Positions 9,757 to 35,906 of a DNA stretch of 64,000 nt are shown piece by piece; the stretch's first letter is position 1, and each line of letters begins with the position of its first letter. The translations under genes were made by a program, and so were the position numbers. Source of the stretch: Chamaelirium japonicum (lineage: Eukaryota > Streptophyta > Magnoliopsida > Liliales > Melanthiaceae); NCBI GenBank assembly GCA_947650365.1, contig OX393549.1:36265335-36329334 (forward strand), given 5' to 3'. The notes beneath the pieces were generated by a model that searched no databases, was not told the DNA's origin, and saw only the letters and a program-made list of their open reading frames with translations.

Positions 9757-9759
9757 ACT

Positions 9760-10241: not shown

Positions 10242-10242
10242 G

Positions 10243-13043: not shown

Positions 13044-13166
13044 TCAAAAAAGTGTGTTCATCAACAACTCATATGCAGTTTTTCTTCTGATCGCTGTCAT
13101 GTCATGTGGTGTGAAATCGACTTTAATGTTGGCCGTGAAATACTTGACAAAGGCCATCATGTAAAC
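13044..13166 (-). pseudogene. C-terminal exon part of Ulp1-like (C48) protease gene, left of the nested insertion
   Basis: On the minus strand, 13166-13044 gives 40 codons and a TGA: VYMMAFVKYFTANIKVD then FTPHDMTAIRRKTAYELL. This is the segment that follows the catalytic cysteine in Ulp1/SENP-type peptidases. The preceding codons (NG-YDCG) are found 20.6 kb away at 33821-33833 and 33918. The bases TAAAC at 13162-13166 are the target duplication and encode the V-Y codons. The gene is therefore interrupted two codons from its catalytic cysteine. Confidence 0.8.
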
Positions 13167-13744
13167 TGTGGGGGGGTTTTCTGGGATTGGACGGTTCGGT
13201 TGATAAACATAATCTAACAAACCAAGAAACGAAGTTGACCGGGTTTACGTAGAAAAATCTCTTCTCAATGTCGAAGGGGAAAAAATCACGGGGTGGAGCA
13301 AGAATGCACTAACAAGGTAAACGGGTTACAATCTCTCACCCTGACCCACTTACATCAGGAGAGGACTGGTCTCCCAAATGCTGACCTCTCAAATATCTTT
13401 CTCAAAACACCAAAAACTCTAGAAAGAATTGGGCAGTACCTCCCCTTCCAGAATTCGGATCCTTTCCTCTAAAGGAGTAGGTTCCAATTTATACTACTGC
13501 TACGTGACAATTATTACCCTCCATACGGGGCGACATTGATGGCGTGCTCCTACGATCTATGTAACAGCCTGCGTCGGGGTGACGTGTCGTGTAGCAGGCG
13601 CTCGGTAGTCATGACAGGGGGTGTTACTTGCCATACTAGTCTGTCGGGAATCTCGGGGCGTGGGCTGTCTTCCCGTAACTGTCGCCAAACCGAGATTCTC
13701 AGAGATAATTATTGCACAATCTGGATAGGTCTCTGTGTGAACTC

Positions 13745-15792
13745 TGTAGACACACGAATTTCGTCGGACCCGAACCCGACTTACGTGTGCCGACGCGGAT
13801 GCAAACCCGACACGCGGACCTGACTCGCTCGCACCGACGCGGATGCAAACCCGACACGCGGACCCGACTCGCGCGCAACGATGCGGACCCGGACCCGACT
13901 CGCACCTAGCAAAGAGAAGCGGACCCCATGCGTCAAGGGGGGGCGGCCCCTACTAGGGTCCGAACCCCATGGGGCCGGCCCCTACTAGGACCCGAGCCAC
14001 ATGGGGCCGGCCCTAGTAGGACCCGAGCCCCATGGGGGGCCGGCCGGCCCTGCAAGGAAAGGGAAGAAAAGGAAAGAAAAGAAAAGAAAGAAAAGAAAAA
14101 GGAAAGAAAAGAAAGGAAAGAAAAGAAAAGGAAAGAAAAGAAAAGAAAGAAAAAAAAGGAAATACCGCCATGCGTGGGGGGAGGTTGCGTATGACGTCTG
14201 CACACACGCGGATCTGTGCCGATCCCTCGATCCGACGCACAAGACGAAGCGCCCGATCGCCATCGATTTCGTGTGCGAAATCCAGCCATAATTGCCTCGC
14301 CAGAAAAGGAAAACAAATAAACGTTATTCCCCTCATCAATGGATGAATAAATCTAGGGTAATTATGAGAGAGATACAAAAGGGATTTAAAATTAAAAAGT
14401 TCCCATATCTCTCTCCCCACCCCTTTGCCTATAAATAGAGGGGGTGGGGGAAGGAAAAAATGGTCGAAAAATTGAAGACGAAACGCCAGAGCTCTGCAGA
14501 AGAAAAGACGCTTCTTCATCGACCCAAGGCTTCACGAGGCACAGTCAAGCCTGTCCCGAGGGATCGGCTTACTGAAAGTCCTCATCAACGTGAAGACCCT
14601 TGCACACGAAGATCAACCCTTCGACTCCGTGCACGAAGAAGAAAGCTCGGAGAAGAAGAACCCTTCGACTCCGAAGACGCCAGAAGCAAAGGCCGGAGAA
14701 GAAGAGGAGCGGCACTACCCCGTCGTCTCCAATAAGCTTCGACTCCGATCAAGCCCAAAAGCCCGGAGAAGAAGAGGAGCGGCACTACCCAGTCGTCTCC
14801 AACAAATCCTCGATCCCGATCAAGCCCCAAAGCCCGGAGGAGAAGCGAAGCGTCATCACCCCGTCGTCTTCGACAAACGCCTGCCCCATTCACGAAGAAG
14901 AAAGCCTGGAGCAGATCGTCTGAAGCGTCGCTACCCCGTCGTCTTCATCAACAAAAGCCGACGCCAAAACCGTCGCACGGAGATCGGTGCTAGCCCCACT
15001 ATCTTCGAAAGCATTCTTCGACTCCGATCACGCCAAAGAAGCCCGAAGAAGAAGAGAAGTCTAGTCGACACGCAAATCGTCGAAGCACCGAAGAAGTAGC
15101 CCACGTCGTTCGAAGAAGAAGATCGAGTTGACGCTAAAGCTAAAGCCAACGCAAGAAGCCAAAACAAAGCCCCAGTAAAGCCCGCGCCAAAGCAACGCAA
15201 GTGCCAAAGCCAAGCGACTACGCCGGCCACGAGCAAAAGCACCGCACGTTCTAGCCGATACGACGCGAAGTCCGGAAGAACGAAAGCATCGCAAGTCTTT
15301 CCCAGCTACGTCCAAGTGCAAGCGCCGAAGCAAAGCAAAATCCAGAGCCACGCCGGAGCCAAGCCAATGCCAGAAGGCCAAAGCCAAAGCCAACGCCAAA
15401 AGCTCGATCGACGTCGCGAACCGACGATCAAGGACACCGAGGTCAAGCAAGGAACGAGGAAGACGTGAAGACCGAGGAACGAAGCCGAAAACCCCCTAGT
15501 CGAGAAAGCGCGAAGCACGGAAGGGACAAAGCAATGGTGGATATTCCTTAGCCTCTCCAAAACCCTCTCCCTGTAAAAACCCCTGTCCTGGGCAACTCCT
15601 TCAGAGCTCTCGCACGAACACCACGTGGAGACGCGGATCAACGGGATCCCCCAGAAGATCTTTCCCACAATCCCCTGATCAAAACTCGCCGCAACCCGGA
15701 CTCGCTACACCCAAGCAACCCGGGTCCCGGCCACACTTGTAATCTTGTGTGATTCACAATAAAGACGACCCGCACTTTTTTCCGCGTCCACA
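13745..15792 (+). repeat. 5' LTR of the Tat element
   Basis: 2048 bp. In order it contains a ~42-bp tandem repeat (13780-13905, units like GACGCGGATGCAAACCCGAC) and GGGCCGGCCCCTACTAGG repeats (13945-14045). An AAAGGAAAAG purine tract follows (14050-14165), then a TATA box (14430) and a GAAGA-rich repetitive stretch (14590-15120) with recurring CCGTCGTCTCCAACAA-type words. It ends CCGCGTCCACA. Confidence 0.95.
14430..14437 (+). promoter_or_regulatory. TATA box of the Tat LTR
   Basis: TATAAATA followed by a G-rich stretch. The same box is at 24504-24511 in the 3' LTR. It is the best promoter candidate of this LTR and predicts transcription start near 14460. Confidence 0.6.
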
Positions 15793-15794
15793 GA

Positions 15795-15811
15795 TTTCTG
15801 GCACGCCCGGT
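15795..15811 (+). other. Primer binding site of the Tat element
   Basis: TTCTGGCACGCCCGGTA begins two bases after the LTR end. A 'TTTCTGGC(A/G)CGCC' string directly after the LTR is common in plant Ty3/gypsy elements. I did not assign the tRNA. Confidence 0.7.
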
Positions 15812-15864
15812 AGGACCTCTTCTCCTTCCATCCGTATGGTTGAAGAAGCTGCTTGAAGTTCGCG

Positions 15865-17457
15865 ATGGCCGGAACAAACAACGATGCGTTTACTCCAAGC
15901 CTCTCACCAATCGCCGAGTCTCCTCTACTCCGACACGGTGATCCAGCCAACCCGGAGGGTGATGCTCCTCCAATGGTGCGCGTCTACACTCGGCGTACTC
16001 GGACTCTTGCGGACATCTTCGTGCCAGAAGCTACTACCGGAGATGCTCGCCAAAGCGCCGACGAGGCCCTGGTGCATGAAGAAACGAGCCTCGATCCTGG
16101 AATCCATGTCCAGAAGTTTGGGGAGGACCAGCCCCAACCCCGAACCCTTTCGGGTTCTCCAGCAGACGTTGCCCCTCCTCTGCAGGGGGCAAACATCAAT
16201 CATCAGCCAGAAGCAAGTCGGCGTAACTACGTCTCCGATGATGACGGCGAGGATGCGAACATGCAACACCGAGACGTTCTCCGTCACCATCCTCCGTCCG
16301 CTCTTCAGCTCCAAGTCATGCAGATGAACGAGCACATGGCGCAGATTACTCGGCTAATGGAGGAGAAGGATCGTCACATCAACACTCTGCTCCAAAAGCT
16401 AAGCGCGAAGGACGCTGCAGCAGTCAGCCAACCCGTCGCCTCTCCAGTTCTGTCTTCAACTCCCGCTCCTGCAGAGGTTGTTCCGACGATTCAAGCGGTT
16501 ACTCCAGCGCTCTCCTCGGCTCCCGTCCCATTGGAAGTCATCTCCCCAGTGCCAGCCTCGGTGGCCACACAACCTCCGGCAACGGCAACGATGAATGCTC
16601 AGCAAGTCCAAGCGTTGATAGCCGACATGATGCGCTCCCACGGCAGTGGCCTTCCTCCGATCACGGCGGCATACTCGAAGCCCTACACTACGAGGATCCA
16701 GCAGCTACGCTTCCCAGTCGGATTCCAGCCGCCAAAGTTTCAGCACTTCGACGGAAAGGGAAATCCGAGACAGCACATTGCCCACTTCATCGAGACCTGC
16801 AATAATGCCGGCACATACGGCGATGAGATGGTGAAGCAATTCGTTCGCACCCTCAAAGGTAACGCGTTCGACTGGTACGTTGATCTTCCTGCAGGGACCA
16901 TCGACAGCTGGGATCAGATGGAGAGGGAGTTCCTCAATCGCTTCTACAGCACCAGACGAACCGTCAGCATGACCGAACTCACCGCCGTCAAACAAAGGAA
17001 AGATGAGCCAGTGATCGCCTACATCGACAGGTGGAGGAACCTCGTGCTGAATTCACGAGACCGCTTGTCTGAAGACTCGGCCATCGAGATGTGCACCCAA
17101 GGCATGCACTGGGGTCTGCTCTACATCCTCAAAGGTATCAAGCCTCGGTCTTTCGAAGAACTCGCAACTCGGGCTCATGACATGGAACTCAGCCTAGCAA
17201 ACCGTGGGGACTCGAAGAACAAGGACTTCTTGAAGATAGAGAAGAAGGACAAGCCACCGGCACCGAAACCAAAGCAAGTCAATGTGGCTGACGTAGCTTC
17301 AACCTCCAAGCCGCTCAAGATCGGTGGCAAGTCAGATCAAAGAAAGGGAGCCGCCATACCGCCGCCTCCGCCGCCAAGACAAAGGATGACTCTCGAGGAG
17401 CTCGAAGCAAAGGAGTATCCCTTCCCGGACTCGGAAGTCTCCTCTGTGTTCGACTAA
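15865..17457 (+). CDS. Gag of the Tat element
   Basis: ATG at 15865 (MAGTNNDAF...) opens a 530-codon frame. An N-terminal low-complexity part is followed by a short coiled coil (about residues 148-180, ITRLMEEKDRHINTLLQKL) and a Pro/Ala-rich linker. The retrotransposon Gag capsid domain (about 282-450) has the landmarks FDGKGNP, FVRTLKGNAFDWYVDLP, W.Q.EREFLNRFYS and RGDSKNKDF. It ends at TAA 17455-17457. The same frame continues for 84 more codons (FD-stop-LLQEKMIELPPSKRPEQ, a zinc-knuckle-like CKYHRVVSHPIERC), so the TAA looks like a CAA to TAA change rather than the original end. Confidence 0.9.
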   Translation: MAGTNNDAFTPSLSPIAESPLLRHGDPANPEGDAPPMVRVYTRRTRTLADIFVPEATTGDARQSADEALVHEETSLDPGIHVQKFGEDQPQPRTLSGSPADVAPPLQGANINHQPEASRRNYVSDDDGEDANMQHRDVLRHHPPSALQLQVMQMNEHMAQITRLMEEKDRHINTLLQKLSAKDAAAVSQPVASPVLSSTPAPAEVVPTIQAVTPALSSAPVPLEVISPVPASVATQPPATATMNAQQVQALIADMMRSHGSGLPPITAAYSKPYTTRIQQLRFPVGFQPPKFQHFDGKGNPRQHIAHFIETCNNAGTYGDEMVKQFVRTLKGNAFDWYVDLPAGTIDSWDQMEREFLNRFYSTRRTVSMTELTAVKQRKDEPVIAYIDRWRNLVLNSRDRLSEDSAIEMCTQGMHWGLLYILKGIKPRSFEELATRAHDMELSLANRGDSKNKDFLKIEKKDKPPAPKPKQVNVADVASTSKPLKIGGKSDQRKGAAIPPPPPPRQRMTLEELEAKEYPFPDSEVSSVFD

Positions 17458-18576
17458 CTGCTGCAAGAGAAGATGATAGAGCTCCCTCCTTCGAAGAGGC
17501 CCGAGCAGATACATCGCGTCGACGACCCTCTCTTCTGCAAATACCACCGAGTGGTAAGTCATCCCATTGAAAGGTGCTTTGTCTTCAAGGAAAGAATCAT
17601 GGCGCTCGCAAAGCAAGGGAAGATAGAGATCGACTCCGGAGAAGTTGCTACGGCCAACATGACGTCCATCACCTTCGGCTCCTTCTCGCCAGTGCTCGTT
17701 GCTGCTCGGTGAAGCATGCCCAAATTGCGCATCAACCGTCAAGCGCCAATCACTAAGTCAACTTCCCAGCCAAAAGTCTCGAAGCGACGTCAACGTACCC
17801 CTGTATTCTCCGAGGAAGAAACGCTGCTGCCCTGGGGGCAACCATTGCTCATGCCAGCACCTCTTCCAAGCAATACTGCATCCCAACGAGCGCTCCAAAG
17901 GAGATACGAGCAAGAACATCCGGAAGTCGGTCTGCTGGGCCAGCCTTCGGGGAAGTTCGACTATTACGTCCTCTACTCAAGGCCTCCGTCCGTTCCAATC
18001 GACAAAATCAAGCCCACCGGCTGGGGATCGGAAGACGAGCCAGTGGAACCTCGAGAAGAGCAAGTCCCTTCCAGTCAAGCTATGTCCTAACGCGCTCTTC
18101 GGAAAAGATACGAGCAAGGAGATCCAGAAGTCGGTCTGCTGGGCCAGCCTTCGGGGAAGTTCGACTATTACGTCCTCTACTCAAGGCCTCCGTCCGTTCC
18201 AATCGACAAAATCAAGCCCACCGGCTGGGGATCGGAAGACGAGCCAATGGAACCTCGAGAAGAGCAAGTCCCTTCCAGTCAAGCTATGTCCCAACGCGCT
18301 CTTCGGAAAAGATACGAGCAAGGAGATCCGGAAGTCGGTCTGCTGGGCCAGCCTTCGGGGAAGTTCGACTATTACGTCCTTTACTCAAGGCCTCCGTCCG
18401 TTCCAATCGACGAAATCAAGCCCACCGGCTGGGGATCGGAAGATGAGCCAGTAGAGCCTCAGGAAGAACAAGTGCCTTCGAGGGAACCAGTTGCTGCTGT
18501 CGACCATCATCCTAGCGAAGGGGAATCCACCGACGAAGAAGCATGGGTCATGCTACCGCGGCGGCGAAAGCCATAG
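17458..18576 (+). pseudogene. Gag C-terminal / linker region with three in-frame stops
   Basis: Same reading frame as Gag. It contains FCKYHRVVSHPIERCFVFK, a C..H...H...C nucleocapsid-like motif as in Tat Gag proteins. It is followed by a charged linker and the 68-residue triplication. Stops are TGA 17710-17712, TAA 18088-18090 and TAG 18574-18576. The TAA is directly shown to be derived, because the next repeat copy has CAA at the same position. Confidence 0.8.
17886..18497 (+). repeat. Three tandem copies of a 204-bp coding unit
   Basis: The GAAGTCGG landmark recurs with its last base at 17930, 18134 and 18338, an exact 204-bp period, so each copy adds 68 residues without shifting frame. 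Each unit reads ...KRYEQ..PEVGLLGQPSG then KFDYYVLYSRPPSVPID and WGSEDEP. Copies differ by a few substitutions. The repeat lies between Gag and protease. Confidence 0.95.
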
Positions 18577-21500
18577 CAAGAAAAGAAGCTCAAACAAGAC
18601 CGTGTGATGAGGGGATTCACCAAGCGGAAGACCTACAAGAAGAAAAGCAAGACTCCGGGAAGGAAGGCGTTCAAAGTGCCGCCGGCAAGCCAAGACGATA
18701 TCCTTCAGCAGAGTCTTCCAGAGCCGACAACTTTGCAAGAGTTCTTCCCAGATCACTTCCTCCCAGCGGACCAACACATCAAGGTGTCTTGTTGCATGGT
18801 CGAAGTCCATGAGGCGTCAGAAGGAAAGAACGAAAGCGAAACTTCTGGAGAAGGCGACTCCACAGATGAGGGAGACGATTCCGACAAAGGGGGCACTGCC
18901 TCTCACGACGAAGCAATCTTGCACATACCGCTCGTAGAGGCTTTGCATCTTCCGAAGAAGGCTCGCCTGGCAATGGCTGCGGCCTTGGCCGATCCGGATA
19001 GCTACATGAGGAAGAGGAAGGACGATCAAAGGTGCAAAGCTGTGGCCTCGTGTGATGCAACGATAACCTTTTCAGATGAGGACCTGCAACTCGGAACGCG
19101 GCTGCATAACCGACCTCTTTACGTCTCGGGATACATCAAGGAGAAGCCAGTGAACCGAATCTTGATGGACTGTGGCTCCGCTGTCAACATCATGCCTATC
19201 CAGACGATGTGGCAACTCGGCATCACCGACGACCAGCTCTCACCAAGTCAATTGGTCATTCAAGGCTTCAACCAGGGTGGACAGTCCACCGTCGGAATCA
19301 TTCTTTTGAAGCTTTCCATCGGCCCGCTGGATACAACGGTCCTCTTCCACATCATCGACTGCCAGACATCATATCGTCTCCTATTAGGAAGACCATGGCT
19401 GCACGAGAACGGCATCGTGGTATCCACCTGGCACCAGTGCCTCAAGTACTACGAAGAAGGCGTGGAGAGGTGCATAGTTGCGGACGACAAGCCATTCAAC
19501 GAGGCCGAGGCACACCTGGCCGACGCTAAGTTCTACCAAGCAAAGGGCCTGGTCGCGGAGGTTCTGCCAGCTAAAGCCCCTCGAGCCCAAAAGATTGAAG
19601 AAGTAAAGAAGGACAAGACTCCTCTTCCCGTGAATCCGGTGCCACCCTCTGACGAGGCAAGACTCAAGGTCCAAGGAACGCCGAAACCTAGGCAAAGGAT
19701 GCGCATCAGCTTCGAGCCAAGAGCAATGCAACATACCCCTTTGCCAGTCCAAACGGCACCTATCCTGCGTCTCGCGCCGCAGTGGCTCCGTAAATCCGAG
19801 CGATCGCCTTCTACTCCGACAAGGAAGCTGGCCCCGTCGTTATCTCAGGCCAACGTCATCACTCTGCAAGAAATGACGGTGCCATTACCTAGCCTGACAG
19901 AAGCTCCGAACCCAAGCAGACCCGTCGAATCAGCAGACCTCGAGCAACTCGGATTCAAGCCGAAAGGGAGTTGGGGGCAAAACGCTGCCAAGTTGCTGTT
20001 TAGAGCTGGCTACAACAAGGAAAGCGCCATGGGCACACTCCCACCAGCAGCAACTCCGCATGGGATGACGAGAACTCAAGCTCGGATGTTTCAAAATGGA
20101 GAGCAAATTCCCCCGAACCGCCAAGGCATCGGCTCCAGTCAAGCTCCGTTGGTCATCAGAACCGCAGCGAAGAAAACCTTCACCTCGAACTACATCGAGG
20201 CGAGGATGGTAGATGAAGCAGCCGAAGAATCGACAATCTCCGATGCACGCTCTACCTACCTCAGCCATCCAGACAGCAAGAGAAGACGACGACGGGTTCG
20301 AGGCCAAGCCTTGTTCCGGAAGCAAACCAGAGGTGGTAAAGACTGGTCGAATCGAAAACGCACATCCGTGTTCGAGAGGCTCGGGCCAGTCAAACAATCA
20401 AAGAAGAAGTCGGCATTCGATCGTCTGGGGATGACAATCGAGGACTTTGTCTCAACACCCACCCACCCACCCATGGCTGCCGTCAATCATATCTCCATTA
20501 CGGATCCCGACAACGGTGACACTTCTACTTCGGACGACGAGTTGCCCAACGCCCCGCCAGTCCTCGAAGAAGGGGGGCAGTCCACCGTTGATGACTTGAA
20601 GGAAATCAACTTGGGCACGAAGACGGAGCCTCGGCCTACATTTGTCAGTACACTCTTGACCCCTGAGGAGGAAGCAGCATACATCAAACTGCTTAAAGAA
20701 TATAGAGACGTCTTCGCATGGTCCTACAAGGAGATGCCGGGCCTCGATCCAAAAATCGCAGTGCACCAGCTCAGCGTCAAACACGGATCCAGCGCCATCA
20801 AGCAAGGACAAAGGCGCTACCGGCCAGAACTGGTACCCCAAATAGAAGGCGAAGTTAACAAGTTGATCGAAGCCGGCTTCATTCGAGAGGTCAAGTACCC
20901 GACATGGATCTCTAGCGTCGTCCCCGTCAAAAAGAAGAACGGCCAAATCCGAGTGTGCGTGGACTTCAGAGACTTGAACAACGCATGTCCAAAGGACGAC
21001 TTCCCCTTGCCAATCACGGAGCTAATGGTCGATGCGACGACAGGTCACGAGGTGCTCACTTTCATGGACGGATTATCGGGCTACAACCAGATTCGGATGG
21101 CACCCAAGGACGAGGAGCTCACGGCTTTCCGCACACCGAAAGGAATCTACTGCTATAAGGTAATATCGTTCGGCTTGAAGAACGCGGGAGCCACCTACCA
21201 GCGAGCTATGCAGAAAATCTTCGACGACATCCTTCATCAAAACGTGGAGTGTTATGTCGACGACCTCGTGGTGAAATCCAAGAAGAGGTCGGCACATCTA
21301 CAAGATCTTGAGCTAATCTTCAAACGACTTCGAAGGTACCAACTCCGTATGAATCCGCTCAAGTGCGCGTTCGGAGTCTCCTCGGGCAAATTCCTCGGCT
21401 TCGTCGTCCGACATCGTGGCATTGAGATAGATCAATCCAAAATTGATGCTATCGTCAATATGCCCACACCAAAGACAGTGCGAGACCTCAGAGGCCTCCA

Positions 21501-21708
21501 GGGGCACTTGGCGTATATCCAAAGATTCATCGCCAACCTGGCTGGAAAGTGCCACCCTTTTAGCCGCCTCATGAAGAAAGGAGCGCCGTTCATATGGGAT
21601 GAAGCATGCCAAGAAGCACTCCAAAACATCAAAGCATATCTACTGAAACCGCCAGTCCTATCAGCACCGGTTCAAGGGAGGCCACTCATCCTCTACATCG
21701 CCGCCTAG
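18577..21708 (+). pseudogene. Protease, G-patch-like segment, reverse transcriptase and start of RNase H (Tat pol)
   Basis: Continuous frame of more than 1,040 codons. Protease lies around 19110-19480: ILMDCGSAVNIMP, with Asp followed by Cys-Gly, then LLLGRPWLHE. A G-patch-like stretch (LGFKPKGSWGQNAAKLL) is near 19950. RT lies at about 20700-21400 with KKKNGQIRVCVDFRDLN, FMDGLSGYNQI and CYVDDLVV (YVDD at 21253-21264). The connection and RNase H begin at about 21590. TAG at 21706-21708 interrupts the normal 'LYIAA-x-EQSLGALLAQ' motif of RNase H, and the frame continues immediately after. Confidence 0.95.
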
Positions 21709-23016
21709 GAGCAATCCTTGGGGGCACTCCTGGCCCAGAACAATGAACTTGGCGTGGAGATAGCTTGCTACTACTTAAGTCGCACTCTCGTCGGCGCAGA
21801 GCTGAATTACTCCCCAATCGAGAAGGTCTGCTTAGCGCTCATCTTCGCCACGAAAAAGCTGCGACACTACATGCTCACTCACACCATCAGACTCGTCTCG
21901 AAGGCTGACCCACTCAAGTACATCATGTCGAGACCAGTGCTTTCCGGACGTCTGGCCAAGTGGGCCCTGCTGCTACTTGAATTTGACATCACCTTCGTGC
22001 CACAGAAAGCGGTTAAATGGCAGGCCCTCGCGGACTTCCTCGCAGAATACCCTCTCCCGGCAGAATGGGAGTTATCAGAAGATCTCCCAGATGAAGAAGT
22101 GTTCTCCGTCGACGTCGCCCCATCCTGGAAAATGTTCTTCGATGGCGCAGCTAGGCAAGACATAGCGAGAGCCGGAGTCATCTTCGTCACCCCGGACAAC
22201 GAAATACTCCCCTTCTCATTCCTGCTCTCGGAATCATGTTCCAACAACGTGGCAGAATATCAAGCCCTACTCATCGGTCTCGAGCTGGCCGACGAAATGA
22301 AGCTTCAAGGACTAGAGATCTTTGGTGACTCTCAACTCGTGATCCAGCAAGTCCTGGGGGCATACGAAGTCAACAAAGAAGACCTGGTGCCGTTGCACGT
22401 GCGAGCTGTGGAGCTCCTCGAAAAACTCAATGCTGCTTTCATTCAACACGTTTCCCGAAACCTCAACCAGCAGGCTGACGCACTCGCAAATCTGGCGGCT
22501 ACACTCCCGTTCCCAGATGAACGTTCGCTCGTCGTCCCCGTCTGCAGGAGATTCGTGATCACCGAAGAAGAGGGTCCGCCCGAAGTGCCAGTTCAAACCA
22601 ACGTGGTGCATGTCCTCGAGATTAAAGAACAAGACTGGAGGCAACCGTTTGTGGAGTATCTCGTTCATGGTAAACTCCCCGAAGATCCGAAGCGCAAAAG
22701 TGACATCCGTCGAAGATCTCTGAGGTTCTACCACTTCAATGGCAAGCTGTACCGACGAAGCTATGACGGCACACTCCTGAGGTGCCTCGCGAAAGAGGAA
22801 GCAGAAACCGCGCTCGAAGAAGTACACGCTGGAATCTGTGGATCGCACCAGTCTGGTCCGAAGCTTCACTTCCGCGTCAGGAGGATGGGATACTACTGGC
22901 CTACCATGATCAAAGACAGCTTGGATTACGCGAGAAGATGTCAAGCTTGCCAGATGCACGGGGACTACATCCGTCAACCTCCGGAGCCTTTACACCCAAC
23001 AATCGCGTCTTGGCCC
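21709..23016 (+). pseudogene. RNase H, second RNase H and integrase zinc finger (Tat pol)
   Basis: Same frame as Gag. EQSLGALLAQ to FLAEYPLP completes the RT-linked RNase H. FFDGAARQDIARAGVIFV, VAEYQALLIGLELA, IFGDSQLVIQQV and QQADALANLAA (22135-22500) form a second RNase H with its D, E and D residues. An HHCC integrase zinc-binding domain follows (VHAGICGSHQSG to CQACQMHGDYI, about 22820-22970). Normal sequence stops after LHPTIASWP at 23016, exactly where the catalytic DDE core should begin. Confidence 0.95.
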
Positions 23017-23796
23017 CGCGGCCGCCGCCTCCTTCGGGCCCCGCAGCCACCGCCGCAGCCCCGCTCGCCCTCGGCCCGACCCGGCCGTCACGCACCCCGT
23101 GCGCCGCCGCCGCCTGCGCGCCACTGCACCGCAGCCCCGCGCGCCGGCCCCGCTGCTGTCGCTGCTGCTTCTACAGGCCGGAGCCGAAGAAGAAGAAGAA
23201 AAAGAAAAAGAAAAAAAAAAAGAAAAAGAGAAAAAAAAAAGAAAAGAAAAAGAAAAAAAAGGAAAAAGAAAAGAAAGGAAAAGAAAAAGAAAAGAAGAAG
23301 AAGAAGAAGAAGAAAGAGGAAGAGAGAGGCGGCGAAGGCGACCCGCACCTCAGCCGCGCTCCTACATCCTCCCCGCCTCGGTCATCGCCACAACGCCGTT
23401 TCGAGCCCGCCTTCGCAACGACCGCAAAATCGCGCACCATCGCCGCCGACGGAAGAGGCGACACCGGGAAGACGGAGCAAGTCTCGTGCAACCCCAGGCA
23501 GCTCACTTCCGACGACGGTCTTCGGAAGCTGGCAGAACCGTAGCGCAGAAGCACAAGGCCGACGAAAGAAGCGACACCGGGAAGACGGAGCAAGTCGCGT
23601 GCAAACCCAGGCAGCTCTCTTCCGACAGCGGTCTCCAGAAGCCGGCAGAACCTTCGCAAAGAAACACAATGACGGATGAAGGGGGTAGGGGTCCATAAAT
23701 AGACTCCCAACCCTGCCCACAAAAGGAATCAAGGACAAGCGCTCTACGATTCTTACGCGTCCAAACCCTACACGCTCTCACCGACGCACTCGTCCT
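23017..23796 (+). other. GC-rich and purine-rich insert replacing the integrase core
   Basis: After IASWP the frame stays open to 23679 but encodes Pro/Arg/Ala-rich then Lys/Glu-rich low-complexity protein with no integrase motif. The DNA is a GC-rich block (23017-23185), an A/G tract (23186-23330) and two direct copies of a ~113-bp unit, with GCGACACCGGGAAGACGG at 23458 and 23571. It may be a replacement from another locus or an old 3' untranslated region joined by deletion. No source was recognised. Confidence 0.75.
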
Positions 23797-23808
23797 TGAG
23801 GGGGCATT
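23797..23808 (+). other. Polypurine tract of the Tat element
   Basis: TGAGGGGGCATT lies directly before the 3' LTR start TGTAGA at 23809. It would prime plus-strand synthesis. Confidence 0.75.
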
Positions 23809-25867: not shown

Positions 25868-25979
25868 AACTCGTTGCGTGAATATTGAAACCATGCGGAG
25901 AAAGTGGAGCTTTCCTCTGATTCCTTTGAGCGTTGGCATGCCCAGTTTAGCAGGTCGATTGGCAGGTCGCGTGTGAGAT

Positions 25980-26660
25980 GCGCGACTGGTTGCGAGTGAA
26001 GGGTGCGACCATGAGCAAAGTGAGCGATCGTGAGCGAGCGTAGAGTGCGATCGCAAGATAAGTGTGCGGCTGTGAGTGAAGTGCACGGTCACGAGCGAAG
26101 TGCGCAACTGTGAGCGATGTACGCGGTCGTGAGCGAAGCGTGCGGTCGAGGGCGAAGTGCGCGGTCGTAAGGGAAGCACACGGTCGTGAGCGAATTGCAT
26201 GGCCGTTGAAGTGAGCGGTCACGAGCGAGCATGGCACGCAGTCGCAAGTGAAATGCGCAACCGTGAGCGAATTGCGTGGTCGCGAGCAAACTGCGCGGCC
26301 GAGGGCGAAGCGTTCGGTCGTGAACGAAGCGTGCGGTCACGAGCGAAGTGCATGGCCGTGAGCAAAGTGCGCAGCCTTGAGCGACGTGCGCGGTCACGAG
26401 CATGCATGGCGCGTGTTCGCGAGCAAAGTGCACAGCCATGAGCAAAGTGTGCGACTACGAGCGAAGTGCGTGGTCGTGAGAAAAGTGCGCAATCGGGAGC
26501 GATGTGCGCGGTCAAAGCGAGCATGGCATGCGGTCGCAAGCGAAGTGCGCGGCCGTGAGCGAAGTGCGCCTTCGCGAGTGAAGTGTGCGGTCGTGACCGA
26601 AGTGCGCGGCCGGGGGCGAAGCACGCGGTCGTGAGCGTAGCACGCAGTTGCGAGCAAAGT
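25980..26660 (-). repeat. 21-bp minisatellite in the left LTR of the Gag-only element
   Basis: More than 25 degenerate units of the type GTGAGCGAAGTGCGCGGTCGC. Because 21 is a multiple of 3, several frames on both strands are open across it. Those peptides (repeats like TSLTTAHFARDRALRSRP) are not evidence of genes. Confidence 0.9.
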
Positions 26661-26929
26661 GCGCGGTCTCTGGATCCCCTCCTTCTATGTTTGTCAAGGT
26701 ACACACAATACCCTAAGGAGAAATGAGTAGTCGCACAGTTATGTGGTTGGATTTACTACCGAAGTAGGTTGGAGAACTGAAGAGGGCCGACCAATTGTAG
26801 AGTTGGTGAAGCCCGAGCGGTATCGGGGTGAAGACTGACCGATCGAAGTCGACCGCTTGCTCATTTTTTGACCCCCCCACGTGCACAGTCCTAACTGGCT
26901 AGTCCCTTTAAAATATTATGGTACACACA

Positions 26930-28340
26930 ATACCCCCTTCTGGTAGGTCGATAGCTTCTTCAATATGCATTCCGATTGGCCGGGACTGGATTGTGTCTTG
27001 TATTACGAAAGGACTCCAGTTATCCATCTTCAAAATTTTATTCCGTAGTTTGCTAATTGTCTGAGTTGATCGGTCAACCTTTGCAACTTCCTTTCTTTCC
27101 TTGCAATTGCCCAATCTGTCCATTCTAAGAACTGGACCATTTTTCTCTTGCCCGTGCAATACTTTAACTGACCAGCCATTCACGCCATCGAGTCTTGTGA
27201 GCCGATCACTCATTAGTGCTCGAGCATTTTTAGGAGCCGGTCAAATTCCTTGCTGAGTCTTTCAACTAGTTAGTCTTCAGTGCGTGTTTCACCTTCCAGG
27301 TACTTTTCTCCGATTGGTCATACTCCTTATTGAGTCTGTCGATTGGTTGGTCTTTCCTGCTAGGACTTTACTATTACCGAGGGCTAGAACTCATTTTGGA
27401 GTGTTATATACCCAGTCGCCTTTGAAAACTCATCCCCAGCCCCACAAGTGGGGCACGTGGCTCTCGGAAGAGACTTTTGCTTGACCCAACTTGTGGGGGG
27501 CCAGAGGCCTTTTTGTTTCACTTTTCACGCATTATCACTGACAAGTCATACTCCTTGTTGAGTCTTTCGACCAGTCAATCTTTACTGCGGATTGGACTTG
27601 AGTGTTTCACCTTTCACGCATCTTCACTAACCGATCGTACTCCTTATCGAGTCTTTCGACCAATCAATCTTTACTGTGGATTGGACTTGAGTGTTTTGCC
27701 TTTCACGCATCTTCACTAACTGATCGTACTCCTTGTCGAGTCTTTCGACCAGTCAGTCTTTACTACGAATTGGTCTTTACTCAATAATGAGTGTTTCACC
27801 TTGGGCATTTTCATCGTCCAGTCATACTCTCTTTTAAGTCTTTAGACCAGTTGGTCTTTACCGTCCCTTGGTATTTGCTCCCGCCGAATAATAGAACCCA
27901 CTTTAGGGTGTTATTCACCTGGACTTTTCACATGTCGGTCATACTCCCTCTTGAGTCTGTTGACCAGTTGGCATTTAAGATTTACCCACACTCTTCGAGA
28001 GGTGAAAGTACTGACCGATCATAATCAACATTGAGTCTTTTGACCGGTCGGGCTTTCACCCAACCGACTCTTTAACTTCAGTCGGCCAGGCCTTCTTGGG
28101 GGAGGTTTTGGCTTGACCCAACTCATGGGAGGTCAAGGGCTCCCGGAGGAGGCTTTTAGCTTGAGGGTGGACGATTTTGCTTGAGGTCGGTCTTCCCGAT
28201 CCTTTGCCACCCCCACTCATATCACTAGGGGTCTTGTTCGTAGGAGATCTTGGATAATAAAATTTTGCATGGAGCCTTTATTGATAAAATGGGAATTTGA
28301 AACCTTCCATTAAAGGCATGAAACCATTACATTCTTAGGC
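26930..28340 (-). repeat. 3' internal region of the Gag-only element with ~88-bp tandem repeats
   Basis: On the minus strand this lies between Gag and the 3' LTR. From about 27515 to 27780 three units of ~88 bp are clear (CACGCATCTTCACTAACC..GATCGTACTCC, GAGTCTTTCGACC). More diverged copies extend from about 27250 to 28070. No protease, RT or integrase frame is present. A purine tract AAGGGGGTAT abuts the LTR at 26930. Confidence 0.75.
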
Positions 28341-28349
28341 ACGAGAGAT

Positions 28350-29330
28350 TACAAGTAGTGATGATCAGTTAGTAGAGGGGGTGCCTTCCTGCACCTCATC
28401 AACAGGCTCGTGGGTCGTGCGTCGAGGATGGTTGATGAACTAGTCAAGATAGCCTGCTTCAATGAGGTCCTCAATGTGATTATGCAATTCCTGGCACTGT
28501 AGTGTTGTATGCCCATGCTCCATATGGTTGCCACAGTAACGAGACAGGTCTCACAGGCTCCTCTCTACTGGACTTATCGGTCGTGCCCTATGAAAGTACT
28601 GCTCTACCTTGATGATCTTGAAGATTTCATCAATTGGCATATTTAGTACCGTGAAGTCCCGATTACATTGAGTGTTGGGTGCTCTAACACGATCACCCCG
28701 CTTTTGGTGCTTTACATCGTGCTGCATCAACTCGCCCAACTGTTTCTCTATATTCTTTGCAGCTATTAGTTGATTGAAGGTGGGTTGCTGGTCTTCAGTG
28801 TCTTTAGTCTTTCGCTTTCGTTCGGCATCTTCGATCTTGATGTACTTCTCCACCCTTCGAAATAGTTCGTCGATCATTTCGGGTGGTCGCTTGATGAGTG
28901 AGGCGCTAATTGATTGGTTAGGCTGTACCGAATTCTTGAAGGCTGCTACAACCATGAGGTCTTGTCCATCAGCATCTACCAAACTCAGGTATTCAGTCCT
29001 GAACCAATGATAGAGTTGCTTCAGTGACTCTTTGTAGGTCATGCTCATCTCGAAGAGAGATTCCAGGGTCTTCAGCTCCCGTCGGTTGTAAAGATAATGG
29101 TCAATGAACCACGTACTTAGCTCTCCGAAGGAGGAGATCGATGATGGTCTGAGCTTGTGGAACTACTCGAGCGGTGTCCCAGACAAGATGTTGGCGATGG
29201 TTCAACAAAGTATATGATCTTCTTTATGAGAGACCAGAGCATCTCGAAAGGCGAGGACGTGCTCCACGAGATCTTTAGTCCCCTCAAACTTCGGTAGGCG
29301 GGGTGGATTCCAGCCTCGCGGGAATGCTTC
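28350..29330 (-). pseudogene. Gag of the Gag-only LTR element
   Basis: The minus-strand frame holds PPRLPKFEGTKDLVEHV, AFRDALVSHKEDHILC and FGELSTWFIDHYLYNRRE, a typical gypsy Gag capsid domain. An open stretch follows (29048-28551) with YKESLKQLYHWFRTEYLSLV and PPEMIDELFRRVEKYIKIED. Further down is a zinc-knuckle-like YCGNHMEHGHTTLQCQELHNHIEDLIEAGYL, listed here as separate motifs (YCGNHMEHGHTTLQC; EDLIEAGYL). Stops include TGA and TAG in the capsid part (one at the W of 'LEWF'). Nothing downstream encodes pol. Confidence 0.85.
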
Positions 29331-30459
29331 ATTGAGGATTTTTTCGATGAGTGGCGATCGAGTGGCTCCTCGATAGAAACTTCTTCTAATCGGTCTGGAG
29401 CTCGCTCTTCCATGCGGCCTCGAGGCCCTTCTTCCTTACCTCCTAGGCGTTCCAAGGCAGGTCGCCGAACACACTCTTGTATGCTTCCTCTGTCGGCGGT
29501 GTGAGTCGGCTGCCGACTGGCCGGTGTTACGCGAGAGTATTGACTCTCACTCGGTAGACGATAGTGTCCATCTTCTCGCGTTAGACGGTGAGGTTCAGCA
29601 AAACTTATCCTTGAGTGGTGCTTGGACGCGGGTGGCTGTCAGGAGTGCTCCCCGAGTCGGGATCAGACATCCAAGCGTGCAGATGCCGCCTGGGCTCCTT
29701 TGTTTCACTCGGCCTGATCCGAGCTACTTGATCCTCATCCACTGGGATTCACGGTTTGGATCTCCGCTGACCAATTTGCTCTGATGCCACTTTGAGGATT
29801 CGATGGTTGCTATACCAGCATTGGTCAGGCAATTTGCGCAAGAAGGCTCTGTTCAATTTGTGCCAGCATGATCGAGTTTATTGGGACTCCAGCTGGGACA
29901 GCTCGAACGAGGTCGCACAACTCTCTGTAGTTACACTGCATCGTCTGGAGCTGCAGAGTGAGGGTTTACTAGACAACATCATGGTAGCTAAGAAAGCCTC
30001 TGATAGGCCTCCTCCTTGAGCAGCCACAATTACCGTTGAGGCTTGACTTGACTCCCCAACCCCCAATGTAGGGTTTGCTGGCATGGTGGTGCGCTCCGAG
30101 TTGGGGATGTGTTGAGCAGGGAGTCCGACATTGCCAACTTCACCAGGCACAGCCGTATGGATAGGAGTTGTAAGGTCGAACGAGTGTGGTATGGTCCACC
30201 TGCTATTACTCATCAACCGTGTGATTGTGGTGATGAATACTGATCGAGATTACTGGTCGGTCGACACCGATGGGTCGATTGATTGGTAGACTCCGGGAGA
30301 TTGCAGGTCGGTCGTCACCTACGGGTCATCTATTATTAAACTCCGGGAGGTTACAGGTTGATCGCCCATAATGGGATGGAACGACTAACCGATCGACACC
30401 CACAGGTCGATGGTCAGGGATTATGGTAGGAAGTCTCAAAGACTGATCCCATAGACGGC
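29331..30459 (-). other. Leader of the Gag-only element
   Basis: About 1.1 kb between primer site and Gag capsid. It includes GTGGCATCAGAGC on the minus strand at about 29780, a primer-site-like string, and a short repeat GGTCGACACC...GGGAG (30255-30420). No convincing independent gene. Confidence 0.5.
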
Positions 30460-30477
30460 TCCAAGATTGTGGTGGGT
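30460..30477 (-). other. Primer binding site of the Gag-only element
   Basis: Minus strand reads ATCTTGGAGCCGTCTATG just after the LTR end. It resembles the 'TTGGCGCCGTCTGTGGG' string common after LTRs of plant gypsy elements. Confidence 0.6.
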
Positions 30478-30925
30478 TTTTCTGGGATTGAGTGGTTCGG
30501 TTGGTAAGCATAATCTAAAAAACCAAGAAACGAAGTGGACCGGGTTTACATGGAAAAACCCTTTCTCAACGTCGAAGGGGAAAAAACCACGGGGTGGGGC
30601 GAGAATGCACTAATAAGGTAAACATGTTACAATATCTCACCCTAAACCACTTACACCCGGAAATGACCGACCTCCCAAATGTCGACCTCTCAAGTTTCTC
30701 TATCAAAGCACCGAAAACTTCAGAAAGAGTTGGGCAACAATTCCCTTCCAGAATTCGGATCCTTTTCTCTGGGGGGTATGTCCCAATTTATAGTGCTGCT
30801 AGGTGACATCTGTTGCCCTCCGTGTGGTGCGGTATTGATGGCGTGCTCCCACGATCTGTGTAACTGTATTCGTCGGGGCGACATATCATCTGGCAAGCGC
30901 TCAGTAGTCACGACAAGGGGTGTTA

Positions 30926-31250
30926 TGTAACATCTGCCCCAAACACACAAGATACTATCCGCTTTGCTTGTGCCCACACGAGAACTTCACAGGGTGGTCA
31001 CCCATCCTAGTACTACTCTCGCCCGAGCACGCTTAACTACGGGGTTCTTACGAATTTCGTAGTGACGCACAGTTTTAAAACGCGTCTTCTATATTTGAGA
31101 GGGAAAATTATATAAGTAGTTCAGGATGTCCTTCTCTCCAAACGATGTGGGGCTAACTCGTGGCCTTGTACACCTCACCTCATCTCATTCATCTTGGCAT
31201 CTCAGTCTCAAGAGTTTTGGCTCTTAGCCTATTGGATCTTGGTCGTCAAA
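30926..31250 (-). repeat. Cassandra LTR 1
   Basis: 325 bp, TGTAACATC...GTCGTCAAA on the plus strand. Its terminal dinucleotide on the outer 5' side has changed from the CACA seen in LTRs 2 and 3. The 5S block is intact. Confidence 0.85.
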
Positions 31251-31331
31251 TTCCACCCCCCCTTAGGGCTACACGTCCTCGTCTAGGGTTAGACCCCCCT
31301 ATTGCGAGGAGAACCTGCTCTGATACCATTT

Positions 31332-31655
31332 TGTAACATCCGCCCCAAACACACAAGATACTGTTTGTTTTGCCTGTGCCCGCACGAGAACTTCCCAAGG
31401 TGGTCACCCATCCTAGTACTACTCTCGCCCGAGCATGCTTAACTACAGAGTTCTTACGAATTTCGTAGCGGCGCACGGTTTTAAAACGCGTCTTCTATGT
31501 TTGAGAGGGGAAATTATATAAATAGTTTAGGATCTTCTTCTTTCCAGGCGATATGGGGCTAACTCGTGGCCTTGTACACCTCACCTCACCTCATCCATCT
31601 TGGCATTCCAATCTCAGGAGTCTTGGCTCTTGGCTATTGGATCTTGGTCGTCACA
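31332..31655 (-). repeat. Cassandra LTR 2
   Basis: 324 bp, TGTAACATC...GTCGTCACA. Primer site GCTCTGATACCA (minus-strand sense) at 31317-31328 belongs to the internal segment on its left. Confidence 0.85.
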
Positions 31656-31735
31656 ATCCACACCCCTTAAGGCTATATGTCCTCGTATAGGGTTAGACCC
31701 CCCCATCCCGAGGAGAACCAACTCTGATACCATTT

Positions 31736-32060
31736 TGTAACATCCGCCCAAACACACAAGATTTTGTCCGCTTTGCCCTTCCCCGCACGAGAACTTCCCA
31801 GGGAGGTCACCCATCCTAGTACTGCTCTCGTCCGAGCATGCTTAACTACGGAGTTCTTACGAAATCTGTAGCAGCACATGGTTTTAAAATACGTCTTCTA
31901 TGTTTGGGAGGGGATATATAAGTAGCTCATGATCTCCTTCTCTCCAGGCGATGTGGAGCTAACTCATGGCCTTGTACACCTCACCTCACCTCACATCATC
32001 CATCTTGGCATTCCAGCCTCAGGAGTCTTGGCTCTTGGCTATTGGCTCTTGGTCGTCACA
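31736..32060 (-). repeat. Cassandra LTR 3
   Basis: 325 bp. The internal segment 32061-32140 on its right ends at a primer-site motif and then meets an LTR in the opposite orientation. Confidence 0.85.
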
Positions 32061-32142
32061 ATCCATCCCCCTTTGGGCTACACGTCCTCGTATAGGGTTA
32101 GACCCCCCCATCCCGAGGAGAACCAACTCTGATACCATTTTC

Positions 32143-32464
32143 TGACGACCAAGATCCAATAGCCAAAAGCCAAGACTCCTGAGGTTGGGATACCAAGATG
32201 GATGAGGTGAGGTAAGGTGTACAAGGCCACAAGTTAGCCCCACATCGCTTGGAGAGAATGAGATCCTGAGCTACTTATATAATTTCCCCTCCTAAACATA
32301 GAAGACACATTTTAAAACCATGCACCATTACGGATTTCGTAAGAACTCCGTAGTTAAGCGTGCTCGGGGGAGAGCAGTACTAGGATGGGTGACCACCCTG
32401 GGAAGTTCTCGTACGAGCACGGGCAAAGCGAACAAAATCTTGTGTGTTTGGGACCGATGTTACA
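32143..32464 (+). repeat. Cassandra LTR 4 (inverted relative to LTRs 1-3)
   Basis: Starts TGACGACCAAGATCC, lacking the first two bases of the normal TGTGACGACC, and ends GATGTTACA. A primer-site variant TGGTATCAGTAC follows at 32468. A run of about 15 G interrupts the internal segment near 32497. Confidence 0.85.
32344..32404 (+). promoter_or_regulatory. 5S rRNA-like Pol III internal promoter in a Cassandra LTR
   Basis: Contains AACTCCGTAGTTAAGCGTGC and AGTACTAGGATGGGTGACC, matching the box A to box C interval of plant 5S rRNA genes. Equivalent blocks occur in all six Cassandra LTRs here. Flanking 5S sequence diverges, so these are not 5S genes. Pol III activity is possible but unproven. Confidence 0.8.
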
Positions 32465-32551
32465 AAATGGTATCAGTACCGGTTCTCCTCACAATGGGGG
32501 GGGGGGGGGTCTAACCCTATATGAAGACGTGTAGCCCTAAGGGGGGTGGAT

Positions 32552-32839
32552 TGTGACGACCAAGATCCAATAGATGGATGAGGTGAGGTGAGGTGTTCTA
32601 GGCCATGAGTTAGCCCCACATCGCCTGGAGAGAAGAAGATCCTGCCCTACTTATATAATTTTCCCTCCCAAACATAGAAGAATTATTTTAAAACTGTGCG
32701 CCGCTACGAATTTCGTAAGAACTCCGTAGTTAAGTGTGCTCGGGCGAGAGCAGTACTAGGATGGGTGACCACCCTAGGAAGTTCCGTGCGGGCACGGGCA
32801 AAGTGGACAAAATCTTATGTGTTAGGGGAGGATGTTACA
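32552..32839 (+). repeat. Cassandra LTR 5, internally deleted
   Basis: 288 bp, TGTGACGACC...GATGTTACA. It lacks about 40 bp after CCAATAG that LTR 4 has. A GGGGGGTGGA purine tract precedes it. Confidence 0.85.
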
Positions 32840-33079
32840 TGTTACTTGCCATACTGGTCGGTCGGGAATCTCGGGGCGTGGGCTGTCTTTCCGTAACCGT
32901 CGCCCAACCGAGATTCTCAAAGATAATTACTGCACGGCCTGTACACGAGTTCTCCGTGTGAACTTGTCGCATGAATATCTGAACCATGCGGACAAAGCGA
33001 AGCTTCCCTCTGATTTCTTTGACCGTTGGCATGCCCAGTTTAGCAGGTCGACTGGCCGGTCGCGTGTGAGACACACCAC

Positions 33080-33555
33080 TGGTCGAGAGTGAAGTGTGCG
33101 GCTGTGAGCGAAGTACGTGGTCGCGAGCGAGCATGGCGTGCGGTCGCAAGCGAAGTATGTGGCTGTGAGTAAAGTGCGCGATCACGAGCGAAGTCCGCGA
33201 CCATGAGCGAAGTGCGTGGTTTCGAGCGAAGTACGTGGTCATGGGTAAAGTGCGCGGTCGTGAGCGAAACGCACAGCCATGAGCAAAGTGCGCGGTCGTG
33301 ATCGAGCGTGGCGCGTGGTCTCAAGTGAAGTGCGCGGTCGCGAGCGAAGTGCGCGGCCGAGGGCAAAGTGCGCGGTCATGAGCAAAGCACGCAATCTCGA
33401 GCGAAGTGTGCAGTCTCTAACGAAGTGCGTGGCCATGAGTGAAGTGTGCGGTCACGAGCAAGCGTGGCGCACGGTCACAAACGAACTGCGCAATCGTGAG
33501 CGAAGTGTGCGGTCACAAGCAAGCGTGGCGTGCGGTCGTGAGCGAAGTGCGCGGT
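33080..33555 (-). repeat. 21-bp minisatellite in the right LTR of the Gag-only element
   Basis: About 20 degenerate GTGAGCGAAGTGCGCGGTC units, homologous to 25980-26660 but with a different copy number. Confidence 0.9.
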
Positions 33556-33815
33556 CTCTGGATCCCCTCCTTCTTTGTTTGTCAAGGTACACACAATACC
33601 CCAAGGAGAAATGAGTAGTCGCAGAGTTATGTGGTTGGATTTACTACCGAAGTAGGTTGGAGAACTGAAGATGGCCGACCAATTATAGAGTTGGTAAAGC
33701 CCGACCGGTATCGGGGTGAAGACCGACCGGTCGAAGTCGGTCGCCTGCTCATTCTTTAGCCTCCACGTGCATAGTTCTGATTGGATGGTCCCATGAAAAT
33801 ATTATGCTATATACA

Positions 33816-35050
33816 TAAACACCACAATCATACCTCAAATACAGTATGACTTTAAACTTAATGATAATAACAAATAAATCAACAAAAAATGATGTATAAT
33901 ATTTCTTCAAAACTTACCCATTTGCTTGCATTTTGTAGTCTTCTTTACCGTTTTGATCATTTCATGCTCCTTCAAAAGCAGATTTATAAGTCATGGTATA
34001 TGAAATAATTGGGAGGATGTAGAAGAAGATATTGGTTGTATTTTTGTACTTTTTGGAGGGGTTTTTGCATATGGAATCAACAACCATCATCATTTTTTTT
34101 CTTCTGTATGTCTAATACCCCCAAGTACTAATGTTGTTGGCTGTGATTTATTGAGATGAAAAAATATTTACAGTCCCATATGTGAAGAATATTTATGTCT
34201 ACATCTGTAACTTTATTATTTAAATTAACTAAATTATGAATGGTGTTGGTCCAACCCACATGGATTGCAAATCTTTATGCCTATTCCTCTAATGATTCAG
34301 ACTTATTTTCTTGAATGTCGATTCAGTTCTAAAATTCATGAGAAACAAATATTATTAAATCCTATATGAATACATAAATAAAAATTATCATCTACTGGTG
34401 CATTTAAAAATATACTATGAAAGAAAATGAGATTGGAATACAGTACCATAAAATATATATCTATTATCATTATTGAGTGTATGGTAAATGAACTAGACAC
34501 CCTATGTATATTATATCGGTCCAAAATGTGGGACATATATGGATTCACATGCTGTAAAATATGAGAAAAAGTCTGATAAAGTTACATAAATAAATAAATA
34601 ATTTTAAGGTACGCAAAAAAATTAAGGCAGAATTACTTACATCATTTTCGACCCAAGTTTTTTCAGCATACAAATCATGTAAAAGTGCAGGGGTAATGGA
34701 AACCGATTCAATTTGGGGTTTATCGATCCCTACATTATAAACAAGAAGATATGATTGAAAACCGATAAATATTAATTAACAATATATAAAAATAAAAAAA
34801 TTAAGAACTTACAAGTTTTTGTTTGTTTACATCAATAAAATACAATAGTGTTTTTCTTTCTCGAGTAGAGAGTTACTTCATCCATTTTGCAGGGAGGATC
34901 TGTTTCTTTTCAATGAAGTCATCTTTAAGTTTTTTCTTTCTTTGGTTTTTTCAAGGTGATTTTAAATACTTATTTGGTTTTTTTTCTCTTACCAGCATCC
35001 TATACATAGTTATAAATATGTTATATAAATAACAAAAAATGCGCAGGCAC
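33816..35050 (-). pseudogene. Ulp1-like (C48) protease gene, exons right of the nested insertion
   Basis: Minus-strand exons, in coding order. A basic segment KPNKYLKSP (34980-34954) comes first. The next exon ends at 34641 (IESVSITPALLHDLYAEK, then END) with a GTAAGT donor. The following exon starts at 34551 after CAG (HVNPYMSHILDRYNIHR). A short exon then ends at 33918 (DYKMQANGG-) before an 84-bp intron (33834-33917). The last exon starts at 33833 with YDCG, the catalytic-cysteine block, and runs into the target duplication. The domain order fits Ulp1-type proteases. I could not place the catalytic His. Some exons contain stops, so the copy is decayed. Confidence 0.65.
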
Positions 35051-35110
35051 CATACAATGAAGACGTTGGCGCTATACTATGGAGGCACCGGCGCCATACT
35101 ATGGAGGGAA
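35041..35110 (+). repeat. MULE-specific GC-rich repeat, block 3
   Basis: GGCACCATACAATG.., TTGGCGCTATACTATGG and GGCACCGGCGCCATAC. Same family as the blocks at 11660 and 12711. Confidence 0.6.
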
Positions 35111-35124
35111 ACATACCTGGTTTT

Positions 35125-35860: not shown

Positions 35861-35906
35861 TCATCATAATAGATATTACAAAATTGGGGATCTTCGGCAA
35901 GAACAT

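Follow-up and report, generated by a model that had tools for sequence, protein, structure and literature searches.

What did a 20.6-kb retrotransposon insertion interrupt in the Chamaelirium japonicum genome, and what was the interrupted element equipped to do? The question is raised by a stretch of 64,000 nucleotides (the window; contig OX393549.1, here C1, positions 36265335-36329334), located within the largest numbered contig of an assembly of 1.52 Gb in 3253 contigs. An initial annotation had placed a nested retrotransposon inside the catalytic-cysteine motif of an Ulp1-like (peptidase C48) protease gene, itself borne by a Mutator-like element (MULE). Here we confirm that observation and find the interpretation supported. 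The insertion is ordinary, and the element beneath it deserves a second look: the MULE combines a gene encoding DUF1985 and C48 domains with arrays of a GC-rich dyad motif, and the two may belong together functionally.

Results

The segment 13167-33815 starts with TGTGG and ends with TATACA, i.e. has TG...CA termini, and TAAAC is present on both sides, as had been annotated. When the segment and one TAAAC are removed, the minus strand reads without a gap, YDCGVYMMAFVKYFTANIKVDFTPHDMTAIRRKTAYELLMNTLF, up to the stop codon, in agreement with the proposed reconstruction, and the last C48 exon becomes YDCGVYMMAFVKYF. The duplication corresponds to GTTTA on the minus strand and falls within the V-Y codons beside Cys-Gly, again as claimed. 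The 84-bp intron likewise holds, with GT...AG ends and exons that join in frame, ...KEDYKMQANG preceding the intron and YDCG following it. The assignment to Peptidase_C48 (PF02902), left as a test by the initial annotation, was borne out: against a cut-off of 20.7, the joined 59-residue piece scores 33.2 bits and the last exon by itself 27.8 bits.

As a genome query the joined piece yielded 134 matches among 150 scored of 348 candidates. Empty sites were sought within the same genome, comparing the joined DNA (1646 bp) with 37 fetched loci (L001-L038 minus L009, the window's own). A single aligned piece spans the junction in 14 of the 37 (L010 to L023), with L011 and L012 matching at 85% over the full 1646 bp; the remaining 23 form a C48 group further removed and do not match the joined sequence at the DNA level. 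At L016, the aligned piece extends just 13 bp past the junction because another long terminal repeat (LTR) sits there. An alignment of 16 loci displays no insertion at the site. Comparison of the window halves with two MULE paralogues, A and B, gives exactly the five duplicated bases in common for B (B 6049-6053) and six for A, one of them by chance. Paralogues thus carry the joined sequence without the insert, so that the second test set by the initial annotation was also passed, and the junction is not a product of chance.

The inserted 20.6 kb, resolved by self-comparison and alignment of LTR parts, are a composite: an element of about 6.6 kb that received a 12.1-kb Gypsy element in its left LTR and a 1.9-kb 5S-bearing cluster in its right LTR (Table 1). 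The annotated nesting consequently stands, and the size given for a single insertion does not, as the first insertion measured about 6.6 kb. The nesting is supported by three different duplications (TAAAC, AACTC and TGTTA) together with the LTR pairing. With its paired LTRs, TG...CA ends and 5-bp duplication the first element has the structure of an LTR retrotransposon. Two frames scanned in its internal part of about 3.5 kb matched no Pfam family over the cut-off, reverse transcriptase and integrase included. Its gag-like frame (28551-29162), without Pfam match, has 12,354 first-look candidate relatives in the genome, and among the 150 scored some have long open frames. The nested Gypsy element matches gag, reverse transcriptase, RNase H and integrase zinc finger families; its second frame (21709-23679) includes RNase H and the integrase zinc finger, has no integrase core match and runs into low complexity. 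The cluster harbors five 5S-rRNA-like stretches of 28.7-34.1 bits, below the gathering score of 38, and Rfam at the gathering threshold gave no match anywhere in the window. In its sub-threshold 5S-like stretches the cluster resembles 5S-carrying elements of the Cassandra type. As to the stack overall, its TG...CA termini, 5-bp duplications and younger-inside-older arrangement are those of other nested LTR retrotransposons, without notable difference; nesting of this kind is ordinary, and the nested insertion is in itself unremarkable.

In the interrupted gene, the positions of the active-site His, Asp, Gln and Cys, the residues whose roles are established for the C48 family, are recognisable in an alignment with paralogues and with the open protein of a sister MULE family (see below). 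Upstream of the insertion, an in-frame stop is found beside the His (within 34122-34136) and another within 33958-33970, with a frame change in between. The exact gene continuity that had been claimed is therefore limited to the junction and does not extend to the gene as a whole. Insertion, two in-frame stops and frame change leave no intact C48 reading frame in the window; the gene is a relic, i.e. a pseudogene, whose stops may predate or postdate the insertion. The DUF1985 domain of paralogue B scores 46.8 bits, over the cut-off of 35.1.

The assignment of the host to the MULEs was upheld. Paralogue B (L041+L042) is a complete element from 1414 to 11078, with terminal inverted repeats (TIRs) of about 76 bp (GAGGTTTTTCC...) and a 9-bp duplication, TACCTTTTT, on both sides; its DUF1985 and C48 gene is convergent with transposase remains. 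The transposase remains are MULE-like in paralogue A (21.1 bits, cut-off 27.6) and SWIM-like in the window, both below the Pfam cut-offs. A search of the window for the left TIR of the host found none, and only the right TIR is present, because the transposase part is broken off at 10241 and its continuation, in L049, lies beyond the left edge of the window. No usable partner was found for the 9 bp flanking the right end (TTACTCACA). Genome-wide, 40 of the 844 first-look candidates for the TIR were scored. Within the block that interrupts the transposase at 10241, direct repeats at 93-408 and 7661-7976 (89%) enclose an apparent decayed LTR element. Copy A is located between two similar frames, aspartyl-protease-like by eye (L039:424-1848 and L040:6221-7000), and a C1 segment of about 62 kb (108.57-108.63 Mb) contains three C48 copies; together, the C48 copies and the flanking frames at A suggest local duplication.

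The GC-rich repeats of the window MULE occur at five places and are built around a core, GGCGYCGRCGCC, a 12-bp dyad identical to its own reverse complement. Paralogues A and B have arrays at corresponding places, in the parts covered, and one more near the other terminus. Allowing at most two mismatches, the whole window has 25 matches versus 2.92 expected (maximum 8 in 100 shuffles), 14 of them in the 7.2 kb of the MULE and 2 outside both MULE and insert. At up to three mismatches the MULE has 25 matches, none in 3807 bp of coding and all in 3433 bp of other sequence, the exon limits being hand-set. A position weight matrix was trained on copy B only and compared with 100 shuffles (30 for the two longest stretches). 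It found 16 and 14 matches in the two parts of the window MULE, where shuffles average 0.56 and 0.59 and never exceed 3, and 24 in A (mean 0.99, maximum 4). Matches numbered 5 in window positions 1-10240 (mean 3.75, maximum 9) and 20 in 38200-64000 (mean 12.5, maximum 21).

In hand-listed clusters, 64 of 76 spacings are exactly 22 bp. When clusters within an element are compared, identity is 61-68% in the core and 33-39% in the spacer, a contrast that is biased because the units were chosen for matching the core. For a motif-blind test, 15 arrays from Tandem Repeats Finder with periods near 22 bp or its multiples (window MULE, A and B) were folded at 22 bp and aligned cyclically. The resulting consensus is GGCGCCGGCGCC followed by TATTACAAAG. 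Among blocks of 12 columns agreement is highest for GGCGCCGGCGCC, at 0.505 inside versus 0.397 outside; one of the 15 folded arrays (winR 2683-2726) is plainly of another kind. The core is hence real, and its contrast to the spacer modest.

Across the genome, two exact cores 8-12 bases apart occur at five places in four distinct loci, compared to none for the reversed pattern, and two cores with 10 bases between them, at up to three mismatches, occur 549 times versus 36 for the reversed pattern. Twelve array loci were taken, four exact and eight with one mismatch in list order, skipping contig C3 and neighbours of places already chosen. The MULE TIR is present inside the 3-4 kb stretch at nine of these and at none of 13 loci without arrays; these 13 comprise a plastid stretch and other repeats and are not matched controls. 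A further array locus, L060, aligns with the body of the MULE. Two of the nine are short elements, in L055 (886-2318) and L062 (1414-3301), that have both termini and match the MULE at the DNA level near the ends only. Within the stretches covered, protein searches at E 1e-3 gave neither C48 nor DUF1985 in any of the 12 array loci. L058 and L061, with one TIR end each, have 38 motif matches apiece in 4 kb, a higher density than in the coding MULEs. Proximity of TIRs and arrays was uninformative, with 4 of 39 array places within 8 kb of any one of 37 TIR places (from the 40 scored of 844).

The best C48 matches in the genome belong to a different, sister MULE family. The copy examined, L050+L051 (C4:52053001-52069000), is bounded by inverted repeats that measure about 0.9 kb and are 88.6% identical. 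Its open frames encode DUF1985 (57.9 bits), C48 (60.7 bits) and, convergently, a transposase in which MULE (72.1 bits), DBD_Tnp_Mut and SWIM domains are recognised. It has tandem repeats of its own, 63-bp and 31-bp units among others, with two arrays between the genes, and zero GGCGYCGRCGCC at up to two mismatches. Among the matches listed, about 30 places have a similar C48 frame of 189-192 residues, two of them with an internal TGA. A search of the PDB with the sister-family DUF1985 frame returned three weak ribosomal-protein matches only (best E 0.32).

Table 1 Features of the window, in window coordinates.
Feature	Position	Strand	Remark
MULE transposase remains, SWIM-like	10241..11529	plus	convergent with DUF1985-C48 gene; 17.6 bits, cut-off 19.6
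Dyad array 1	11665..11830		between the two convergent genes; 8 positions with 22-bp spacing
Dyad array 2	12718..12909		between the two convergent genes
Last C48 exon, 3' part to stop codon	13044..13166	minus	
Target-site duplication TAAAC, left copy	13162..13166		
Composite insertion	13167..33815	minus	strand assumed for first element (gag-like frame on minus; primer-site side by eye)
First element, left LTR piece 1	13167..13744	minus	pairs with 30468-30925 and 32840-32966; 83% identity, K2P (Kimura two-parameter distance) 0.194
Nested Gypsy-type element	13745..25867	plus	2.05-kb LTRs, 97.5% identical, K2P 0.026; duplication AACTC
First element, left LTR piece 2	25873..26929	minus	pairs with 32960-33815; 81% identity, K2P 0.225
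First element, internal part	26930..30467	minus	about 3.5 kb
First element, right LTR piece 1	30468..30925	minus	
Nested cluster	30926..32839		units of about 405 bp in both orientations; duplication TGTTA
First element, right LTR piece 2	32840..33815	minus	
Target-site duplication TAAAC, right copy	33816..33820		
Last C48 exon, 5' part (Y-D-C-G)	33821..33833	minus	
Intron, GT...AG	33834..33917	minus	84 bp
Upstream C48 exon region	33918..34215	minus	outer limit approximate
Dyad array 3	35040..35095		assumed intron of DUF1985-C48 gene
Glu/Lys-rich low-complexity region	35110..35880	minus	between DUF1985 and C48; limits approximate
Dyad array 4	36295..36418		between exons of DUF1985-C48 gene
DUF1985-like exon	36761..37342	minus	same gene as C48; 25.9 bits
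Dyad array 5	37584..37652		towards right terminus
MULE right-end TIR	38060..38134	minus	next 9 bp TTACTCACA

Discussion

Based on the resolved insertion and comparisons to related copies, we propose the following history, which we consider the probable joint explanation of the MULE, the nested insertions, the gene and the arrays. A TIR-bearing MULE landed with two convergent genes, one for the transposase and one for a DUF1985 and C48 (Ulp1-like) protein. A Gypsy-like LTR retrotransposon of about 6.6 kb then entered the last exon directly after the catalytic Cys-Gly codons, where it generated a 5-bp duplication and cut the protease gene in two. Later a 12.1-kb Gypsy element entered one LTR and the 5S-bearing cluster the other, point mutations accruing before or after the insertion. 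These steps of landing, splitting and nesting are shown by the sequence itself. The split gene would be of the VANC/KIU type, the 22-bp-spaced GGCGYCGRCGCC arrays of the MULE would represent DNA targets of the DUF1985-C48 protein, and these targets may have kept the element's own family, including coding-less TIR elements, from silencing.

The combination of DUF1985 with C48 corresponds to the layout of the VANC/KIU anti-silencing genes, and a VANC-like mode of action is suggested by this analogy. VANC proteins contain DUF1985 (PMC5735166), and VANC genes with Ulp1 are named KIU, their families having motifs of their own (PMC13317346). VANC21 binds a short motif and is located in introns, intergenic and terminal non-coding regions. 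VANC targets are arranged as tandem repeats, each family having different ones, and the motif of VANC6 is also present in AT9TSD1, an unrelated element (PMC5735166). The window MULE resembles VANDAL elements and their VANC genes in the DUF1985 protein and in non-coding tandem repeats of a short family-specific motif (PMC5735166). It differs in that the motif, described here from sequence, is a longer GC-rich dyad, and in that its family keeps clear TIRs, whereas VANDAL TIRs are degenerated, a state that goes with VANC-related genes, the causal link being described as untested (PMC10398659). ULP-bearing MULEs are known in either orientation, with or without TIRs. KAONASHI, the KI-MULEs and other such elements of Arabidopsis, melon, rice and grapevine share the C48/ULP gene reversed to the transposase (PMC2528002); compared with these as there described, DUF1985 is here part of the same gene, dyad arrays are present in the element and the window copy is split by retrotransposons.

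It is possible, albeit doubtful, that this TIR-MULE family has a complete, sequence-specific anti-silencing system of its own, consisting of a DUF1985-C48 protein and, as its target, the dyad GGCGYCGRCGCC repeated every 22 bp, or roughly two turns of the helix, within introns, between genes and in subterminal DNA. Many coding-less elements of the same TIR would then escape silencing together, and a second TIR-MULE family would have a related gene and different repeats. Several observations weigh against the explanation proposed above. Nine of the 25 core matches in the window lie in the GC-rich insert, where the weight matrix also finds 48 matches versus a shuffle mean of 34.4 and a maximum of 43 (30 shuffles). 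The motif-blind contrast is far below the figure from motif-picked units, which lowers the case for anti-silencing slightly. Two of the 12 array loci (L059 and L063) have neither TIR nor MULE body. The DUF1985 match in the window, at 25.9 bits, is under the cut-off of 35.1. Of 14 close paralogues, read by eye, 8 retain the catalytic Cys codon and 3 retain Cys-Gly; in conjunction with the broken window copy, the Cys count makes present activity of the gene family doubtful.

A further difficulty concerns age. Between the window MULE and A, K2P amounts to 0.132 and 0.169 in two stretches, and between the window MULE and B to 0.149 in one. As A and B lack the insertion, it must be younger than the split from them, yet the old LTRs have diverged by 0.19-0.23, more than the 0.13-0.17 between the MULE copies. 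The LTR clock is therefore unreliable and dating by LTR divergence was rejected. Transitions constitute 71 of 96 and 124 of 161 changes between the old LTRs, and the divergence is plausibly inflated by transitions at methylated sites.

As an alternative, the locus may reflect ordinary nesting, in which a captured ULP gene in a dead MULE was hit by retrotransposons and the GC-rich repeats are neutral minisatellites, arising by slippage and carried along by transposition. This is quite possible, if short of probable: many copies are decayed, the sister family also has tandem repeats, of other kinds, the motif-blind contrast is modest, and capture of ULP genes by MULEs is known from grapevine, melon and rice (PMC2528002). 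However, neutral repeats fit less well with the same dyad core recurring in five or six clusters per element despite different spacers, with its location outside the hand-set exons, and with its presence in elements whose resemblance to the MULE is otherwise confined to the end regions. The arrays could instead be binding sites of the transposase rather than targets of the DUF1985-C48 protein, as subterminal repeats bind transposase in some other transposons. Arrays in TIR elements without C48 or DUF1985 match agree with this, since mobility would need the transposase only; we nevertheless deem it unlikely, as the open sister family, although its genes are of the same kinds, lacks the motif at up to two mismatches and has other tandem repeats, and as the arrays are located between exons and between genes as well as near the ends, like VANC targets (PMC5735166). 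A junction created by the assembly through fusion of unrelated pieces is highly improbable. The assembly has many contigs, but the window is located inside the largest numbered one and no sign of such a fusion was found; we set the artefact aside because three perfect duplications at the nested boundaries and the matching LTR pairs agree.

If the DUF1985-C48 protein of the element does target the arrays, VANC-type anti-silencing would also occur in MULEs with preserved TIRs and perhaps outside the eudicots, and its target could be read directly from the sequence. The rbcL gene marks the genome as that of a plant, and the rbcL protein scores highest with PDB 1wdd, followed by 5wsk and 5iu0 (rice, wheat and Arabidopsis), a weak indication that the plant is probably not a eudicot. 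Diversification of VANC-type systems in eudicots has reportedly been treated by Sasaki et al. in 2022 (EMBO J). Two TIR-bearing families with VANC-like genes in one genome would also bear on the link to TIR degeneration (PMC10398659).

Additional observations

In another MULE copy (L016:1374-1540), base 1505 is the end of an LTR that belongs to the family of the nested Gypsy element (13745-25867), at a distance of 13 bp from the insertion point in the window. Targeted insertion at the active site was rejected as an explanation, this being a single case among 14 and no evidence of a hotspot; nothing suggests targeting, and the active-site position is taken as coincidence.

Beyond the MULE, a GC-rich receptor-kinase-like gene, recognised by eye, is located at 49044-50318, with a third-position GC of about 0.78-0.80. 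It is split over two overlapping frames, as may result from one frameshift or an assembly error.

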